From Nitratifractor salsuginis DSM 16511 (lineage in GTDB: Bacteria > Campylobacterota > Campylobacteria > Campylobacterales > Sulfurovaceae), in NCBI RefSeq assembly GCF_000186245.1, contig NC_014935.1:558001-622000 (forward strand): DNA of 64,000 nucleotides, read 5' to 3'. Positions within the stretch are counted from its first letter, which is position 1, and the number at the start of each line of letters is the position of its first letter. Below the pieces are notes generated by a model. The model had not been told where the DNA came from and did no database searches. It saw only the letters and a program-made list of their open reading frames with translations. The position numbers were made by a program, and so were the translations under genes. Below are positions 45,375-57,583 of this stretch, piece after piece.

Positions 45375-48200
45375 ATGAACTTACCTGATAACTTTTTCCA
45401 TCATGATGCCCAAGGATTTTTCCTCCCGGATTCACATTCAGGCATTAATGTTGAAAATATTGGTCGTAAACAAAATACCCTTATAGAAGGTATTAGAGGT
45501 ACTGGGAAAACGCATGTTTTAAAAATGATCCAAAGAAACCGTTTAGAACAATTTGGTGAAAATAGAATTTTGCCAGTTTATTTATCAGTTGCAAAAATTA
45601 GTGAACATGCCAAAAAAGATCCAGATATATTTAGAATGTATTTATATGGAAATTTAGTTAGAGAAGCAATTTCTATTGCAAATATAAATAAGGAAAGTCT
45701 CCAGCCTAATAAAACACTTTTGAAAAAAAGTTTTCACTCAATTACAAGAATGTTTGGAATATCGGCCAATGAACCCTTTGACAGGGTTTTAGATAAGATA
45801 AATGTTCTTTCAGATCAATTATTTGATGAATTTGAATTTGGCTTACTTGGAAAATACATTAACAAAGAACAGGCTAGAGAAATATCACTTTCTAAAGGAG
45901 GAAATATAAAAGCAGGAGTATCCTTAGTTGGCAATAATGTTGATTCTTCTTTATCAGAAAATAAAATATTACAAAATACAGAAAGAAGCCAGGAAGGTGT
46001 AGCTTTTCTTGGAAAAAAACTTTCTCACAATGACGCAGTAGATTTTTTAATTACTTTCTTAAAACAATTACAAGTAATATTAGACTTAGATTACACTCTT
46101 CTTCTAATCGACGAATGCTCAGAAGCACCAAAAAATGCACAGATCGAAATATTTAGGTTACTCAAAACTATCCGGGGCGCAGATTCACTGTTGCCAGAAT
46201 CTGGTTCCTCTTGTGCCTACTTTGTTGCATCTGTTTACCCAAAGAGTCACACTTATTATCCCACTATCAAGAATGATGGGTTTAATTTTGAGCCTGGTCA
46301 TGATTTTACTACAAACTATCTTCAATGGGATGTAACTGACAATATTGGATATGAACAATTTTTTAAAGATATGTTGATTAATCGTGCAAAAAGTCTTTTA
46401 GGGTACTCTGGAACAATAGATCAGTTTATACATGAGCTGTTTGATAAAAAAGATACTTTCTTGCTTGCAATATACTCTTCACATGGTATTCCAAGACGAT
46501 TTTGGGAGATATTGAAGAGAGCTTATTATAACGGTAATGGAAAAATTAGATATAACAATATATCTAATACAATTCTTGGGATTGCTCAGGAACAACTCAT
46601 AGACCACAACCTTTTGAGTGAAAAGGAACAGGATTTTATTCAATACCAAGCCCGTAGATTAAATAGTCAAAATGCTGAAATAAGGCGTATAAACAGAAGA
46701 AGTAGGCGGAGTAAGCCTCAGAATATATTTTTTGAAATAAATAGAAATAATTCAAATAATATACAAAGTATTATTATGGTTGGTGCAATGCATGATATGA
46801 AAAGAATTAGAGCAAAAAAAAATAAAAGTATTGCTAAGCCTTTATATGCGCTTGACATTGCAATTGCGTTTTCCTTAAAATCAATACCAGAAGGTGAATT
46901 TATTGAATTTTTAAAAAATGAACTACATCGCAATGCTACAACAAATTTCACAAATGCTTTATCTGTGCTATCAAAACACTTTATCGAATCGTCACAAGAG
47001 GAAATAGAAGAATTAGCTACAAGCTTAGATAGTGAAAATGATATGATAGTCGGTGCAGAGGAAGGCATTAATAAAGAAGAATATTATGGAACAATTGAGG
47101 AAGTAACGAAGTATTCAGGTATTATTTTGCCTGATGATGAAGAAAAAGAGGCAGTATTCCAAATAAGCAATATTGGTGAAGCTGATAGAAAATATATACA
47201 AATTGGCGATAGAGTAATTTTCAATAGTAGTTGGGTTGATGGAACTAGAGTTGCAACAAATATTAGAAAAATAAATGTTTATAAAGCCGAAGGTACGATT
47301 ACAAAAATATTCAAAGATTTGTTTGGGACAATTACTATACTTGAAGATGGTACAGAGGCTTTCTTCCTCTTGAAAGATGCTGATGAGAAGCTAGAAAAAG
47401 GTGATTTTGTTGAGTTTTCAATAGAAGAAACAAACACTAACAAAAGGAAAGCATATAATATCAGGTTAAAAGATACTGTAAGGTATGCAGAAATACCCAA
47501 AAAGGAAATTGTTGCCTATATTTATTCAATTATTGATAATTCAGACAATCCAGTTAGTTTGGCAGATTTGGGAAATAGGATTATTAATAAATATGGTGAT
47601 ATTGTTCGATTAAGCCACTGGTTTGGACATAAAAAGCTTATGCATTTCATCGCAAGTCTAGATTTGAAAGATTTGCATATCGATAATAGCTCTGGACCTG
47701 GATATATATCGTATAAGAAAATCAAAAATAACTCAGTTAAGATAGGGAAACAAGGTGATGGTTTTATATTATTCACTGATCATGAAAAGTTGATAAACAA
47801 ATTATCAAATGAAATTGGCATCCCTAAATTATCAAGAGAAGAATACAAAAAAATATTTAGACTATTAAAAGAATTAATTGATGAAGAAGGTTATACTTTC
47901 AATTATACAGCAAAGCGACTCAGGGATGTGGCAAGAAAAAACAATATACGATTAAATAGAGTAGGCAGTAATTTTATTTTACGGGGAATTGTATATGCTG
48001 GTCATTGGTTTGAACAACCAGAAGACACCAAAAAGCTACAACAGGCTTTTTATAAAAATACAGTATCGCTAATCGAACAAAACAATTTTTTATTAGATGA
48101 ACATGATTCAGAGTTACTAAAAGATATTTTTGATATTAAAGATATGAAAAAAAAGAAATTAAGAAAAGGAATCAGAATCATAAAAAAGGCGAATGGGTAA
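45375..48200 (+). CDS. AAA ATPase with cold-shock and OST-HTH domains
   Basis: A 941-aa multidomain protein in AT-rich sequence unlike its neighbours. Residues 30-400: P-loop ATPase of the ORC/CDC6-STAND kind, Walker A EGIRGTGKT (38-46) and Walker B LLLIDECSE (242-250). Residues about 569-632 and 637-698: two cold-shock/S1-like OB folds (YYGTIEEVTKYSGIILPDD; GTITKIFKDLFGTITILED). Residues about 708-781: an OST-HTH/LOTUS RNA-binding domain (VSLADLGNRIINKYGDI...HKKLMHFIASL). About 804-880: a second winged-helix-like region. The tail is Lys-rich. Fusion of an ATPase sensor with RNA-binding modules, beside a broken Wadjet gene, suggests a defence protein (inference). I know no named system with this order. 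Confidence 0.8.
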   Translation: MNLPDNFFHHDAQGFFLPDSHSGINVENIGRKQNTLIEGIRGTGKTHVLKMIQRNRLEQFGENRILPVYLSVAKISEHAKKDPDIFRMYLYGNLVREAISIANINKESLQPNKTLLKKSFHSITRMFGISANEPFDRVLDKINVLSDQLFDEFEFGLLGKYINKEQAREISLSKGGNIKAGVSLVGNNVDSSLSENKILQNTERSQEGVAFLGKKLSHNDAVDFLITFLKQLQVILDLDYTLLLIDECSEAPKNAQIEIFRLLKTIRGADSLLPESGSSCAYFVASVYPKSHTYYPTIKNDGFNFEPGHDFTTNYLQWDVTDNIGYEQFFKDMLINRAKSLLGYSGTIDQFIHELFDKKDTFLLAIYSSHGIPRRFWEILKRAYYNGNGKIRYNNISNTILGIAQEQLIDHNLLSEKEQDFIQYQARRLNSQNAEIRRINRRSRRSKPQNIFFEINRNNSNNIQSIIMVGAMHDMKRIRAKKNKSIAKPLYALDIAIAFSLKSIPEGEFIEFLKNELHRNATTNFTNALSVLSKHFIESSQEEIEELATSLDSENDMIVGAEEGINKEEYYGTIEEVTKYSGIILPDDEEKEAVFQISNIGEADRKYIQIGDRVIFNSSWVDGTRVATNIRKINVYKAEGTITKIFKDLFGTITILEDGTEAFFLLKDADEKLEKGDFVEFSIEETNTNKRKAYNIRLKDTVRYAEIPKKEIVAYIYSIIDNSDNPVSLADLGNRIINKYGDIVRLSHWFGHKKLMHFIASLDLKDLHIDNSSGPGYISYKKIKNNSVKIGKQGDGFILFTDHEKLINKLSNEIGIPKLSREEYKKIFRLLKELIDEEGYTFNYTAKRLRDVARKNNIRLNRVGSNFILRGIVYAGHWFEQPEDTKKLQQAFYKNTVSLIEQNNFLLDEHDSELLKDIFDIKDMKKKKLRKGIRIIKKANG

Positions 48201-52129: not shown

Positions 52130-52252
52130 CGGTGCTCCTTGATCTATTCTATCTTAATCCTGTATGCCGTTTTGCATTGACGGAATAATAGCAGGAAATG
52201 TTGTTTACCTCGTCAATGGATTGGAAATTGGTGCTTTTTGATTGTAGAAGGG

Positions 52253-52295
52253 TTGACACTCCTCTATCCCAGTGATAATATATGAAAACATATAT
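52253..52295 (+). promoter_or_regulatory. Promoter and palindromic operator of the PIN module
   Basis: TTGACA (52253-52258), a 17-nt spacer and TAATAT (52276-52281). An inverted repeat ATATATG-AAAA-CATATAT (52278-52295) overlaps the -10 box, as expected for autorepression by an antitoxin. It is the only clear -35 box noticed in the window. Confidence 0.7.
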
Positions 52296-52312
52296 AAATA
52301 GAGGGATCTCAG

Positions 52313-52600
52313 ATGAAACAAATATCTATTTCAGAGATTCAAAGGAATCTTCATAAGCTCGACTCTTTCGATATTGTCGAGATAGTCGATAAAAAGCGCA
52401 ACCGTATCAAGGGGTATTACATCGAGGGGAAATATGCCTCTCTTGTGAAAGAGGTGGCCCAAAAAGTTGAGGCGCTGAAAAAGAGAGCGATCCAAAATCC
52501 CGCAGGAAAACTCCAACAATATGCCGATCCGGCGAAGATCGCTTCGGAAAAGGACGTGTGGAAACAGAATGTGCTTAATCGGTATACAGAGGAGGGGTAG
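52313..52600 (+). CDS. Antitoxin of the PIN module
   Basis: A 95-aa protein in the place of the antitoxin, 3 nt before the PIN gene. The N-terminus (QISISEIQRNLHKLDSF) resembles Phd/YefM-type DNA-binding antitoxins, and the C-terminal half is charged and helical, suited to wrapping the toxin. GAGGGA precedes the ATG, and a palindromic operator overlaps its promoter. Confidence 0.75.
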   Translation: MKQISISEIQRNLHKLDSFDIVEIVDKKRNRIKGYYIEGKYASLVKEVAQKVEALKKRAIQNPAGKLQQYADPAKIASEKDVWKQNVLNRYTEEG

Positions 52601-52603
52601 CTT

Positions 52604-52969
52604 ATGGTCCTACTCGATGCCAATTACATTTTGCGTTATCTTTTAAACGACAATGCCGATATGTTCCGCCAAGCTGTGCAGACGATCGAGAACGAAGAGT
52701 GTTTCGTTCCGGGCGAAGTGCTGGGGGAGGTTATTTATGTACTTAGCGGCCATTACGGAGTACCACGCTCCGAAGTTGCCGATGTTCTCGAAGCCTTGCT
52801 GGCGCTTCCCAACCTTCACTCTTTCGAAGATGGTGTTTACTATGAAGATGCGTTGAGGCTTTTCGCCGAATCCTCTCTTGATTATGTCGATTGTCTTTTG
52901 TGTTCGATAGGAAGAGATTATCGGGTGGCGACCTTCGATAAGAAGCTGTTGCGGTGTTTGGATAAGTGA
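52604..52969 (+). CDS. PIN-domain toxin
   Basis: A 121-aa PIN ribonuclease. Acidic residues of the active site are visible: LLDANYILRYLL (first Asp), GEVLGEVIYVL (Glu), LDYVDCLLCSIGRDY (Asp) and VATFDKKL (last Asp). PIN toxins cut mRNA, tRNA or rRNA. The antitoxin gene precedes it. The stop codon is followed by a transposase relic. Confidence 0.88.
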   Translation: MVLLDANYILRYLLNDNADMFRQAVQTIENEECFVPGEVLGEVIYVLSGHYGVPRSEVADVLEALLALPNLHSFEDGVYYEDALRLFAESSLDYVDCLLCSIGRDYRVATFDKKLLRCLDK

Positions 52970-52984
52970 AATATCAAGAAGCTG

Positions 52985-53110
52985 TATTGTACTGTCGGGC
53001 TGGGGGATCAGTGTATTGTCCAAGCCTATCAAGAGGGCTATTCTCAGCATGGGATAGCCAAGATATTGGGATTGGCTCGGTCAACGATACAAAAATTATC
53101 AAAAGGGTAG
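52985..53110 (+). pseudogene. C-terminal transposase relic (HTH fragment)
   Basis: Frame 52985-53110 encodes the tail of a Y1 (REP/IS200-like) transposase: GLGDQ, then AYQEGYSQHGIAKILGLARS with an HTH, and a stop. No start codon or catalytic part is upstream. It lies between the PIN module and the cyclase cassette. A short frame at 53121-53199 (LLRSPDPYKRESEIKEMF...) may be another scrap. Marks past insertion and decay at the left edge of the AT-rich cassette. Confidence 0.6.
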
Positions 53111-53252
53111 GTAAGAAGGATGCTATTACGTTCACCTGACCCCTATAAGCGTGAGAGTGAGATTAAGGAGATGTTTGAGAGGGTGGTGGAGTTGTGAGAT
53201 TAATTAAATCAACCTTATTAAACACCATAAAGATATTTTGGGAAGGTTAATT

Positions 53253-53963
53253 ATGAAAATAGACTATTCTAAATATGATTTTGACAGAAGTCTTGAGCGG
53301 ATAGATGAAATTTTAAATAGTTCAGATTATAACTATGAAGAAAAAAAAGGGATACCTTCTGAAAGTAGTTTGACTTTTAAAAATGGATTTTATGTAGATG
53401 TAACTGTAGTTTTCGTGGATATTCGTGGTTCTAAAGAGTTAGCAAATAAACATACACGACCGGTACTGGCAAAGATATATCGTAGTTATATTTCTGAAGT
53501 AATTGCGGTTATGAAAGGTAACTCAAAAATTAATGATATTTTTATAGAGGGGGATGGAGTTTGGGCAGTATTTGATACTAAAACAAGAGAAGATGTACAA
53601 AGTGTATTTAGTACTACTTCAAAAATTTCTTCACTAATTGATGCTCTAAATAAAAAGCTAATAAGAAAAGGGTATTCAAGCATAAAAGTTGGTATAGGTA
53701 TGGACGATGGTGAATCTTTATATATAAAAGCCGGGCATAATGGAAGCGGTATTAATGAAATTGTATGGATAGGAAAGGTAGTTGGCGAAGCAGCCAAACT
53801 TAGTGGATTTGGGAATAGGGAATCACATGATAAAAGAACTATGGTTACTAAGAAGGTGTATGATATGCTAAGTCAGCATCAAAAGAGCTTATTAAAGTGG
53901 AATGCTTCTAGAGAGTGTTATCATGGCAATACTATTTGGAAACCGTATGAAGACTTAAACTAA
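53253..53963 (+). CDS. Class III nucleotide cyclase-like protein 1
   Basis: A 236-aa single-domain class III cyclase homolog. Both metal-binding Asp regions are kept: FVDIRGS (Asp56) and IEGDGVWAVF (Asp101). The usual transition-state Asn-x3-Arg is degenerate (GKVVGEAAKL at 174-183, Gly and Lys in place of Asn and Arg). Residue -3 to GDG is Phe, unlike adenylate (Lys) or guanylate (Glu) cyclases. Start is ATG at 53253 after GGGAAGG; an upstream TTG is ignored. First gene of an AT-rich operon with two more cyclase-like genes and a membrane effector. Confidence 0.85.
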   Translation: MKIDYSKYDFDRSLERIDEILNSSDYNYEEKKGIPSESSLTFKNGFYVDVTVVFVDIRGSKELANKHTRPVLAKIYRSYISEVIAVMKGNSKINDIFIEGDGVWAVFDTKTREDVQSVFSTTSKISSLIDALNKKLIRKGYSSIKVGIGMDDGESLYIKAGHNGSGINEIVWIGKVVGEAAKLSGFGNRESHDKRTMVTKKVYDMLSQHQKSLLKWNASRECYHGNTIWKPYEDLN

Positions 53964-53972
53964 GGAACAAGT

Positions 53973-54821
53973 ATGTTTGAAAAATCAGATAATGAAATAA
54001 TACAAATTATCCAAAAATACATAAATATTATAAGAGAAATTCTAGAAAGAGAAAAGCTTGAAGAAGAAGCCATAAAACTGGAGTATATAACTAAGACTGA
54101 AATAGTACCACATGATTTTTTTTCTGACAAAAATGGTAAAGTTTCAAGTTGCGATAAGGAAAATATAATTTTATTTAAAGATTTTGGAACACCTATAGTA
54201 CTTTTCAATGATTTAAAAAATTCCACAAAACTTGTTGAAGAACTTGAATGCAAAAATGAGCTTTGTATATATGCTATCTATATGTATTATTCTTCTAAAA
54301 TGTTAGGTGATATTTTGGACGTCCTAAATGGTAAAATGGTAGAATGCACAGGTGATGGCAATTACTCAATTTTTTTAGAAGACGAGATTCAAAAAAGTAT
54401 CATTCCTCAAAGTATATATTTCTTTCATAGTTTAAAAGATATTTACGATAGTGCAAATTTCATAAAAATAAAAGATTATATTTTAAATTTTGATACAGAC
54501 GAAGTAAAATATATATATCCTTGGATTTGTGACTATCAACCTCACCAAATATTTAAGCGTCAATATTTCATTAGAGTACTTAGTAATCAAAACAAAATAA
54601 GTAATATCATCAGAGTGCTGTTTTTTCATATATATGCTATATTTAATATTGAGGTTAATACAATTTTAGAGAATAGAATAAAACAAAAATTTTTAACAAG
54701 GATTGGCTGTAAACAAGGCTTATGCAAGATAAGTAGAATTGACATAAACGGACATATCAAACAGGATAAGTTGATTGGTAGTGTTGTGCATCAAGCTGCA
54801 CATCAAGCAAGTGGTAAATAA
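53973..54821 (+). CDS. Class III nucleotide cyclase-like protein 2
   Basis: A 282-aa protein with an N-terminal helical region (1-60) and a cyclase-like domain. Metal Asp positions: VLFNDLKNST (Asp80) and ECTGDGNYSIF (Asp128); Glu125 is at -3 to GDG. An unusual insert of about 110 residues separates these from a C-terminal part (ISRIDINGHIKQDKLIG), and Asn-x3-Arg is His-x3-His (VVHQAAHQ). The domain ends abruptly soon after. GC content is very low. It overlaps no gene; 9 nt after cyclase 1 with AAGGA. Confidence 0.75.
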   Translation: MFEKSDNEIIQIIQKYINIIREILEREKLEEEAIKLEYITKTEIVPHDFFSDKNGKVSSCDKENIILFKDFGTPIVLFNDLKNSTKLVEELECKNELCIYAIYMYYSSKMLGDILDVLNGKMVECTGDGNYSIFLEDEIQKSIIPQSIYFFHSLKDIYDSANFIKIKDYILNFDTDEVKYIYPWICDYQPHQIFKRQYFIRVLSNQNKISNIIRVLFFHIYAIFNIEVNTILENRIKQKFLTRIGCKQGLCKISRIDINGHIKQDKLIGSVVHQAAHQASGK

Positions 54822-54833
54822 AGGAGATTTTTC

Positions 54834-55340
54834 ATGACAGATACAGAAAAAGCAAAATTGGACTTTATGTATAAGTCAATTGATGATGCGGTTAGTAACA
54901 TTAGAGCAATGGATATAAAATCAAATGTACTGATAGCTTTTATTGGAGTGATGGTTTTTGCTGTAATTAAAATCAATAATGATAATATCTCAATTATAAT
55001 GGCTCTTTCTATACTGTGTGGATTGGGTACAGCAATAGTTTTTGTATATGGAGTAGTCCTTCCAAGAGTTGATCCAGATATAGAATTGTATAATGTTAAT
55101 GAGATCATTAATAATGATTTGGATAAAAAATTATTCTTTCCAAGAAAATGTAAAAATTTAAAACTATATTATAATAATATAAATAATTTGGGTTATAACG
55201 ATTTTTTGAAATTATTATCTTACGAAAGACTAAAACTTCAAATAATATTTGACAAAAAAACTAGTTATTTTAAAATTGGATTAACCTGCTTGGTGATATT
55301 TTTTTTATTAATACTAATTAATTTAGCAGCTGGGATATAA
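54834..55340 (+). CDS. PycTM-like membrane effector
   Basis: A 168-aa protein with the architecture of Pycsar effectors (DUF5706): an N-terminal amphipathic helix, the motif DIKSNVLIAF (residues 27-36), two adjacent TM helices (about 31-46 and 52-76), a cytosolic region, and a C-terminal TM helix (about 147-167). In Pycsar, cyclic pyrimidine nucleotides make PycTM disrupt the membrane and stop phage spread. Here it sits between cyclase-like genes 2 and 3, with AAGGAG before the ATG. Confidence 0.82.
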   Translation: MTDTEKAKLDFMYKSIDDAVSNIRAMDIKSNVLIAFIGVMVFAVIKINNDNISIIMALSILCGLGTAIVFVYGVVLPRVDPDIELYNVNEIINNDLDKKLFFPRKCKNLKLYYNNINNLGYNDFLKLLSYERLKLQIIFDKKTSYFKIGLTCLVIFFLLILINLAAGI

Positions 55341-55351
55341 ATTTATAAATT

Positions 55352-55975
55352 ATGGAAAATGAATTTTTTGGAGGTGTATTTTATATAGATCTAAGAAATT
55401 ATACAAAATTAGTTGATGATGAAATACTAAAAAAAATAGCAGAAATAATTTACGACTATCAAAACCTTATCAATTTTGAAGTAAATAAGTATTTTAACAA
55501 AGAAACAATTTCTGCTATAGAATATATGGGAGATGGTATAATGATAATAATTAAAAATAATGATGTTTCTGCCAATATTTCTGCCAAATCATATTTGCAT
55601 AATCCATTTTGTTTTAAGATATATGAAGCTGGTAAAATTTTTAGAGACTCTTTAGATAATTTCTTACAATGTCAAAAAGAAGATTACAAGAAATATATTG
55701 GATTGAAAATTCTGGATTTTGGTATAGGATTATCTTATAGTAAGATTTTCAAAAAAATTCACAAAAGAGATAATAGAAATATGTTTTTCGGGTCAAGTTT
55801 GAATAGAGCAGTTAAAATTGGTGATTCTATAAATAAAAAATATAACCATTTGGCTATAGATAAAAAAATGTATGATGATTATTTAATTAATATCTTGTCT
55901 GAATCAGAAAAGCGGTTAATAATCAAAAGAGATAAGCCTTTAGTTCATATGTATCAAAAATTATATTCAACTTGA
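55352..55975 (+). CDS. Class III nucleotide cyclase-like protein 3
   Basis: A 207-aa cyclase homolog and the most complete of the three: FYIDLRNYT (Asp13), EYMGDGIMII (Asp61, Glu57 at -3 to GDG) and GSSLNRAVKI (148-157) with Asn151 and Lys155 in the Asn-x3-Arg positions. No N-terminal extension. 11 nt after the effector gene; no clear ribosome binding site, so translation may be coupled. The last gene of the cassette. Confidence 0.82.
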   Translation: MENEFFGGVFYIDLRNYTKLVDDEILKKIAEIIYDYQNLINFEVNKYFNKETISAIEYMGDGIMIIIKNNDVSANISAKSYLHNPFCFKIYEAGKIFRDSLDNFLQCQKEDYKKYIGLKILDFGIGLSYSKIFKKIHKRDNRNMFFGSSLNRAVKIGDSINKKYNHLAIDKKMYDDYLINILSESEKRLIIKRDKPLVHMYQKLYST

Positions 55976-56098
55976 GTATTTCATATGCAGCCACTCCATA
56001 CATTACCCAAAAAAATAAATAAAAATCCGGGATACTGGCTTCAATAGAAACAAAAGATAGGGAACAGGGGCCGATAATGGTTCCTGACTAAGTACCCC

Positions 56099-57583
56099 TT
56101 ACGCGTGCGCATCCCCCCGCGCCAGCTTCTCCAGCAAGCGTGTCATCATCCTCACCCCCGCACCGCTGGCGCCGTGGGGATTCTCTCCCCAGGCGTGCTC
56201 CACAAAAGCGGGGCCGGCGATGTCGATGTGGGCCCATTTCTCTTTGTGATCCTCGTCGATGAATTCCCCCAGGAACATTCCCGCCGTTATGGCGCCGCCG
56301 TAGCGGGTGTTGGAGATGTTGCAAATGTCGGCGATCTCGCTTTTAAGCGTTTTGCGCAGGAAGCGGTTGAAATCCAGTTTGGTGGCCAGTTCGCCGCTGA
56401 GGGTGTTGGCGGCGTAGAGGACGCGGTTGACCGGATCGGCGCCAAAGCCCATCACGCCGCTGGTGTATTGACCCACGCCCACCACGCAAGCACCCGTGAG
56501 GGTGGCCAGGTCGAAGATGTAGTCGGCTTTGACCTTCTCCTGGGCGTAGCAGAGCACATCCGCCAGGACCAGGCGCCCCTCGGCGTCGGTGTTGCGCACT
56601 TCGATGGTCTTGCCGTTTTTGGCTTTCAAAACGTCATCGGGCTTGTAGGCATCGCCGCCGATCATATTCTCCACCGCACCCACGAATCCGTGGACCTCGA
56701 TGGGCAGGTGAAGCTCCGCTACCGCCTTGAGGATCCCCAGTACGGCGGAGCCGCCGCTCTTGTCAGCCTTCATCGTCACCATAAAGTCGGAGGGCTTGAG
56801 GCTGAGTCCGCCGCTGTCGTAGGTCAGTCCCTTGCCGATCAGGCTGACGGTGGCGACGGGGGTTTCTTTGGGGGTGTAGCTCAGGTGGATGAGGCGGGGT
56901 TCGTGGCGGCTGGCACGTCCTACGGCCAGCAGGGCGTTCATGCCTTCCTCTCTCATCTCTTTGGGCCCCAGGACCTCCAGGTTCAGGCGAGATTCTTTCT
57001 GTGCCAGCTCTGCGGCGATCTGTGCCATCGTTTCGGGATAGCAGTCATCAGGAGCGGTGTTGACGATATCCCGGACGAAGTTGGTCGCCTCGGCGCTGAC
57101 GATCGCCTTGTCGATGGCCCGCTGGGCGGCGGGGATATCCAGAGCGTAGCCATTGTACTCCTCCAGGGAGATGCGAACCTTGTGGAGGTGTTTGTCGGTG
57201 TGCTTGCTCTTGTAGCGCTCGAAGCGGTAGCCCCCCAGCAGCAGCCCCTCGGCTTGGGCACGCAGGGTAGCGGTGCAGGAGGGATGGCTCATATAGGCCC
57301 CCATCTTGGCGATCTTATAGCCCTTGCCGTTGAGGGCCCGCACCGCGTTGGCCGCGGCGGAGCGGATGTCGGCGCTGTTGATGGAGTCGGCACCCACATA
57401 GAGCTTGCCCTTCTCCGCCAGCAGGCAGGTCTCATCCTGATCCCCGCTGAAGCCGGCCTGTTGCAGCAGTTCCTTGTCCTCGTCCACAAAACGCTGGTCG
57501 AAGTTTTTGTTGATGACGATGACGATTTCGATATCGGCTTCGATTTCGTTGAGGAGTTTTTCGTAAAACTTTATCAATTTCAT
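56099..57583 (-). CDS. pepA: Leucyl aminopeptidase
   Basis: M17 aminopeptidase (494 aa) that removes N-terminal residues from peptides and binds two metal ions. Signatures NTDAEGRLVLADVL (the family consensus), KGLTYDSGGLSLKP and KADKSGGSAVLG are intact, with the catalytic Lys and Arg. The start is the ATG at 57581-57583 after AAAGGA; the longer frame runs into the hairpin element. Convergent with the cyclase cassette. Confidence 0.96.
   Translation of the reverse strand: MKLIKFYEKLLNEIEADIEIVIVINKNFDQRFVDEDKELLQQAGFSGDQDETCLLAEKGKLYVGADSINSADIRSAAANAVRALNGKGYKIAKMGAYMSHPSCTATLRAQAEGLLLGGYRFERYKSKHTDKHLHKVRISLEEYNGYALDIPAAQRAIDKAIVSAEATNFVRDIVNTAPDDCYPETMAQIAAELAQKESRLNLEVLGPKEMREEGMNALLAVGRASRHEPRLIHLSYTPKETPVATVSLIGKGLTYDSGGLSLKPSDFMVTMKADKSGGSAVLGILKAVAELHLPIEVHGFVGAVENMIGGDAYKPDDVLKAKNGKTIEVRNTDAEGRLVLADVLCYAQEKVKADYIFDLATLTGACVVGVGQYTSGVMGFGADPVNRVLYAANTLSGELATKLDFNRFLRKTLKSEIADICNISNTRYGGAITAGMFLGEFIDEDHKEKWAHIDIAGPAFVEHAWGENPHGASGAGVRMMTRLLEKLARGDAHA

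Follow-up and report, generated by a model that had tools for sequence, protein, structure and literature searches.

The stretch of Nitratifractor salsuginis DSM 16511 DNA analyzed here (the window; 64,000 nucleotides) carries four open reading frames on the + strand between positions 53253 and 55975, with successive gaps of 9, 12, and 11 nt. In the 5' to 3' direction, they encode a core PycC-type cyclase (Cyc1), a divergent cyclase-like protein (Cyc2), a PycTM-like effector, and a third cyclase-like protein (Cyc3; Table 1). An open reading frame check reproduced exactly the coordinates and spacings of this four-gene cassette as given in the initial annotation. The AT-rich composition pointed out there was confirmed as well, with a GC content of 0.23-0.32 (GC3 0.17-0.21) in the cassette vs. 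~0.57 in the surrounding chromosome. A promoter and terminator scan stayed near the background level, and Rfam gave no match.

Table 1 Features of the inserted segment and its four-gene cassette (window coordinates)
Feature	Position	Strand	Basis
Inserted segment, ~3.9 kb, approximate extent	52217..56104	.	cydA/pepA flanks adjoin in congeners
Putative antitoxin and PIN-domain toxin, neighbor outside the cassette	52313..52969	+	PIN PF01850, E 3.3e-9 for 52604-52969
Frame-broken relic with HTH segment VQAYQEGYSQHGIAKILGLARSTIQKLSKG	52970..53200	+	Frame translation, HTH_23-type Pfam matches
Cyc1, core PycC-type class III cyclase, 236 aa	53253..53963	+	PADLOC PDLC02368 PycC, E 2.4e-90
Cyc2, divergent cyclase-like protein, 282 aa	53973..54821	+	Weak PycC matches, residues 72-144, E 7.3e-6
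PycTM-like effector, 168 aa	54834..55340	+	PADLOC PDLC02364 PycTM, E 7.6e-12
Cyc3, minimal class III cyclase-fold protein, 207 aa	55352..55975	+	PycC PDLC02367, E 3.2e-6

The insertion contains a PIN toxin-antitoxin pair, the HTH relic, and the cassette. In three congeneric genomes (G237, G506, and G507), the cassette is absent and cydA and pepA are ~467 nt apart; alignments of the window with the congeners break at 52215/52216 and 56105-56112. This empty site bears out the horizontal acquisition that had been suggested from the base composition and from a transposase relic on the left-hand side. As for the relic, what is present is a short piece of a broken frame that bears an HTH. It is possibly the C-terminus of a transposase, an identity that is plausible, not proved. 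Terminal repeats of the inserted segment were looked for, and none were recognized. A second AT-rich stretch of the window (45375-48200, GC ~0.31-0.37) holds one 941-aa open reading frame, in which an ORC-CDC6-like ATPase domain is combined with a cold-shock-type domain reminiscent of TOTE conflict systems. OST-HTH also matches it weakly, and it is possibly an unrecognized conflict or defense gene.

Cyc1 matches Pfam PF00211 (Guanylate_cyc) at 2.7e-7, above the Pfam cut-off, and, in the PDB, the Burkholderia cUMP synthase BcPycC (7r65) at 9.6e-9. The N-terminal region of PycC is present, and the metal-binding aspartic acids are D56 and D101. The transition-state asparagine, which is present in nearly all relatives of Cyc1, is replaced by Gly178, and Lys182 follows. 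In the whole single-contig genome of 2,101,285 bases, Cyc1 is the only PF00211 match. Hence, its grouping with two more cyclase-like genes does not reflect the background density of such genes.

The hydrophobic segments of the effector have a two-plus-one layout. An HMM built from the effectors of related loci matches it at 2e-27, and Pfam gave no match, PF18967 included. The proposal of a PycTM-like protein is thus borne out by PDLC02364 and by the HMM of the relatives. With Cyc1, a PycC-family class III cyclase gene with both metal-binding Asp (PDLC02368), and an adjacent cyclic-nucleotide effector of the PycTM rather than the PycTIR kind, the cassette probably encodes a Pycsar-type operon, and this core of PycC and PycTM is the best-supported part of our reading.

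Of the catalytic set, Cyc3 retains D13, D61, Asn, and Lys. The protein begins at the first core strand and has no N-terminal PycC region; the N-terminal helix regarded as a PycC hallmark (PMC11224242) is absent. An AF2 model reached a pLDDT of 75 and a pTM of 0.74, with an input alignment that contained known cyclases and may favor the fold. The best matches of this model in a Foldseek search of the PDB are class III cyclases (best E 7.8e-9; 8jsz, 5e-8; 7r65, 8e-8). Cyc3 therefore has the fold, the two metal-binding Asp, and the Asn/Lys pair of class III enzymes, the fold being read from a model whose alignment included known cyclases. When the Cyc3 stretch was shuffled 2000 times, a 200-codon open frame was never retained.

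In Cyc2, the metal-binding residues are D80 and D128, as read by eye, so that all three proteins have both Asp. Approximately 68 extra residues lie between the second Asp and the VxxAAH motif, and the C-terminus follows directly after this motif, i.e., the protein is truncated. Histidines occupy both the transition-state Asn and the Lys positions (read by eye). A homologue from Arcobacter (locus L041) is 53% identical, and the PycC models match it in the same stretch as in Cyc2. Both proteins keep FNDLKNSTK, ECTGDGNYSIF, and a C-terminal RIGC...GHIKQDKLIGS.VH.AAHQAS block in the order typical of class III. An AF2 model of Cyc2 built from two sequences failed (pLDDT 32), and its assignment therefore rests on sequence. 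We also compared 500 composition shuffles each of Cyc2 and Cyc3 with an HMM of ~135 related cyclases, and for neither protein did any shuffle score as high as the original. Three class III cyclase-like proteins had been proposed in the initial annotation; this is certain for Cyc1, well supported for Cyc3, and moderately supported for Cyc2.

Relatives of Cyc2 are rare. Among 397 Campylobacterota genomes, only its own genome has one, and among 104 genomes of the Arcobacter family, only that of L041. Neither Cyc2 nor Cyc3 has relatives in the plasmid records and viral contigs searched. A 476-aa clostridial cyclase was considered as a Cyc2-Cyc3 fusion and rejected, as it consists of a single cyclase domain and a C-terminal extension.

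Pycsar has been described as one cyclase plus one receptor (PMC11224242), and the initial annotation took one cyclase per system as the rule. We scanned 85,000 species genomes with the Cyc1-family alignment, which yielded 80 loci, and added loci from plasmids, phages, and viral contigs. Arrays were defined as strict same-strand chains with gaps of ≤150 nt. Two cyclases and one PycTM are contiguous on the same strand in 26 of the 91 related loci, and most of the others are PycC-PycTM pairs. The order is cyclase-PycTM-PycC in 15 of these arrays, PycC-cyclase-PycTM in four, PycTM-PycC-cyclase in two, and cyclase-PycC-PycTM in two, with three other orders occurring once each. In 17 of the 23 two-cyclase genomes examined, the array pair represents the sole PycC-like genes, and in Prevotella ruminicola KHT3, the only three such genes of the genome lie together around one PycTM. 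A single cyclase is thus the described habit of Pycsar and not a strict requirement, and the rule was too narrow. That a core PycC and a second cyclase repeatedly share one effector is a genuine feature of these loci. Since it has three cyclase-like genes, the cassette is a Pycsar variant, not a plain member. With two eroded partners, it is an extreme case, and its peculiarity lies in the extreme divergence of both extra cyclases.

The partner cyclases fall into at least five well-separated tree clades: a clostridial type (457-502 aa), a Bacteroidota type (318-346 aa), a BcPycC-like type (230-249 aa), a 243-aa type, and an actinobacterial/flavobacterial type. Hence, the pairing of core and partner arose repeatedly. 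One Prevotella partner is a fusion of leucine-rich repeats (LRR) with a cyclase, and the clostridial partners carry a long C-terminal extension; such additions would be expected of sensors.

Several of the loci have features of their own. In the three-cyclase cassette of P. ruminicola (L052:2016-5702), the middle cyclase carries leucine-rich repeats at its N-terminus, and the cassette is directly followed by a Y1 (IS200-like) transposase gene. The genome of Ruminococcus phage NatCom_28274 ends in a cyclase-PycTM-PycC cassette (L037:1973-4714) with nearly the same arrangement as on Paraclostridium plasmid pCS1-5 (L034), so that two-cyclase Pycsar is both phage- and plasmid-borne. At L063:306-2305, a two-cyclase array is adjoined by a second PycTM and by a 491-aa protein that joins a cyclase-like domain (SLDICKST...FTGDGALIFF) at its N-terminus to a region resembling, by eye, a glycosyltransferase. 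On Mycobacterium marinum plasmid pRAW (L038:3308-5786), divergent PycTM, PycC, and a second cyclase lie beside the type VII secretion locus, and another mycobacterial locus (L114) has a similar layout. A PycTM-PycC pair at L064:126-1366 lies on a contig binned as Bathycorpusculum and would be archaeal if the binning is right.

Cyc1 itself belongs to a clade with a tree support of 96, which comprises the window, L041 (an Arcobacter MAG), L042 (Massilia, twice), L043 (a Chlorobiaceae MAG), and L049 (a deltaproteobacterial MAG). All six members share the Asn-to-Gly exchange and a Glu two residues before the second Asp. On the 3.1-kb contig of L041, Cyc1-Cyc2-PycTM is followed by an HTH gene on the opposite strand, and thus there is no Cyc3 at this locus. 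Of the gene order of the cassette, Cyc1-Cyc2-effector recurs here. L049 (4.2-kb contig) has Cyc1-PycTM and a degenerate cyclase with Asn changed to Phe, L042 has Cyc1-PycTM and a convergent second Cyc1, and L043 has Cyc1-PycTM alone. Because the MAG contigs are short, the hosts of L041 and L049 are uncertain. The genomes of L041, L049, and L043 gave no significant match to Cyc3. In the tree, Cyc3 and the degenerate cyclase of L049 group together (support 81) on two very long branches, a relationship that we regard as unproven. Between the window and L041, identity is 68% for Cyc1, compared with the above value for Cyc2 and only 24% for the effector. The differences in Cyc1 and Cyc2 are mostly at third codon positions, and both appear to change as genes under purifying selection.

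We interpret the cassette as a Pycsar-type abortive-infection operon in which Cyc1 is a core enzyme resembling pyrimidine cyclases and Cyc2 and Cyc3 are class III cyclase-fold partners that pair with Cyc1 and have a regulatory or sensory function, a reading to which we give an even chance. Pycsar is characterized by the production of cCMP or cUMP when a phage infects and by defense through its effector. In the cassette, a cyclic mononucleotide would be made upon infection, which would activate the membrane effector and stop the cell. Active sites of known PycC enzymes sit at the dimer interface (PMC11224242). As class III active sites are formed between two subunits, pairing with Cyc1 would be the most likely arrangement for the partners, and in a regulatory or sensory role, they might sense the phage. 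Possibly, they also supply missing active-site residues, as the Asn lost in Cyc1 is retained in Cyc3. A Cyc1-Cyc3 pair could in principle complete one site, as in mammalian adenylyl cyclase. We infer pairing and regulation from the interface position of the active site, the degeneration seen here, the recurrence of extra cyclases, and the sensor-like additions in relatives.

Other observations argue against co-assembly. L042 and L043 have the Asn-to-Gly exchange and no divergent partner, the partners in L041 and L049 have also lost Asn, and Cyc2 is known from two loci only. The idea of Cyc3 as an obligatory Asn donor to Cyc1 is weakened by these same four loci: as Gly occurs there with no Asn-bearing partner, an Asn from a partner is not a general requirement. 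Furthermore, most relatives have a second cyclase whose active site is complete and which may be an independent enzyme; the Arg used for UTP by BcPycC is often among its residues.

The main rival takes up this last point. The cyclases could act in parallel as an OR gate, each being an enzyme and a sensor in its own right that makes the same or a different cyclic nucleotide for the one effector. Nearly all two-cyclase relatives retain D1, D2, and Asn in both enzymes, the partners stem from several clades, and Cyc3 retains D, D, N, and K. The base-pocket residues differ, since the core has C, G, or A after the second Asp and several partner clades have Arg there, comparable to R97 in the base pocket of BcPycC, which uses UTP (PMC11224242). 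For relatives with intact partners, such a gate may well hold. In the window, Cyc2 has no Asn, a large insert, and no C-terminal part, and Cyc3 has no N-terminal PycC region; because of these losses, Cyc2 at any rate would probably not work well as an enzyme by itself. We consider parallel enzymes a real possibility for the window, if an unlikely one.

The strong divergence of Cyc2 and Cyc3 would also suit pseudo-cyclases that bind phage anti-Pycsar factors or restrain Cyc1 until infection with no joint site, and their conserved metal-binding Asp may bind nucleotide without turnover. This explanation overlaps with co-assembly, and nothing specific speaks against it; we hold it to be quite improbable. 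The same divergence, together with the occurrence of Cyc1-PycTM alone in L043, could mean that a plain Cyc1-PycTM Pycsar has merely accumulated two decaying, functionless duplicates. Every frame is intact, however, extra cyclases recur across many lineages, and Cyc2 is kept across two genera with invariant catalytic-motif blocks and an excess of third-position changes. Decay, already disfavored, is therefore very improbable.

The two- and three-cyclase relatives in unrelated bacteria suggest an under-described multi-cyclase form of Pycsar. In the literature searched, which did not include the founding Pycsar paper and limits the novelty accordingly, we found no description of such a form. A further-reaching proposal, possible though doubtful, is that multi-cyclase Pycsar is a distinct and widespread subtype, in which variable partner cyclases, many of them with sensor domains or catalytically degenerate, join a conserved core PycC in hetero-assemblies, detect phage, and gate signal synthesis, and that Cyc1, Cyc2, and Cyc3 of the window form a hetero-oligomeric class III cyclase of bacterial immunity. 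If true, bacteria would here provide a rare example of class III cyclases that occur naturally as unlike subunits. Direct binding, pH, and oligomerization have been proposed for phage sensing by Pycsar (PMC11224242). The variable second or third cyclase beside a constant core cyclase and one effector is a concrete candidate for the component that does the sensing or gating, and one that is open to genetic tests. Such systems would be missed or wrongly split by annotation rules built on a single cyclase.

Pycsar (PycC plus PycTM) is among the closest known systems, with a PycC-type class III cyclase adjoining a PycTM in a mobile-island setting. In contrast to it, the window has two additional divergent cyclase-like genes and the Asn-to-Gly exchange in Cyc1. 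The structures of BcPycC (7r65, a clade B uridylate cyclase) and AnPycC (8jsz, clade D) agree with Cyc1 by sequence and with Cyc3 by model in the fold and in the positions of the metal-binding Asp. The base pocket is F/E/G/W in Cyc1 vs. Y50, D94, and R97 in BcPycC and F60, K104, and F109 in AnPycC, and the N-terminal helix typical of PycC is missing from Cyc3.

Panoptes (OptS/OptE) likewise combines a cyclic-nucleotide synthase with a membrane effector. By analogy, one cyclase of the window might constitutively make a restraining or decoy nucleotide, and depletion of cyclic nucleotides by the phage would free the effector. Panoptes does so with a different synthase, and its authors have speculated about similar systems guarding Pycsar signals (PMC12657218); several cyclases per effector would fit. 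The effector here belongs to the ordinary PycTM family, however, and the degenerate Cyc2 would be odd as a constitutive synthase, which makes such a guard improbable. OptS differs in that it synthesizes 2',3'-c-di-AMP and does not belong to the class III cyclases, and the Panoptes nucleotide restrains the effector instead of activating it. For the co-assembly that we prefer, the heterodimeric class III cyclases (mammalian adenylyl cyclase C1/C2 and soluble guanylyl cyclase alpha/beta) are the relevant comparison, as active-site residues are divided between unlike subunits, which would apply here as well. Unlike them, the window has separate small proteins encoded in an operon, and the residues lost vary among the relatives.
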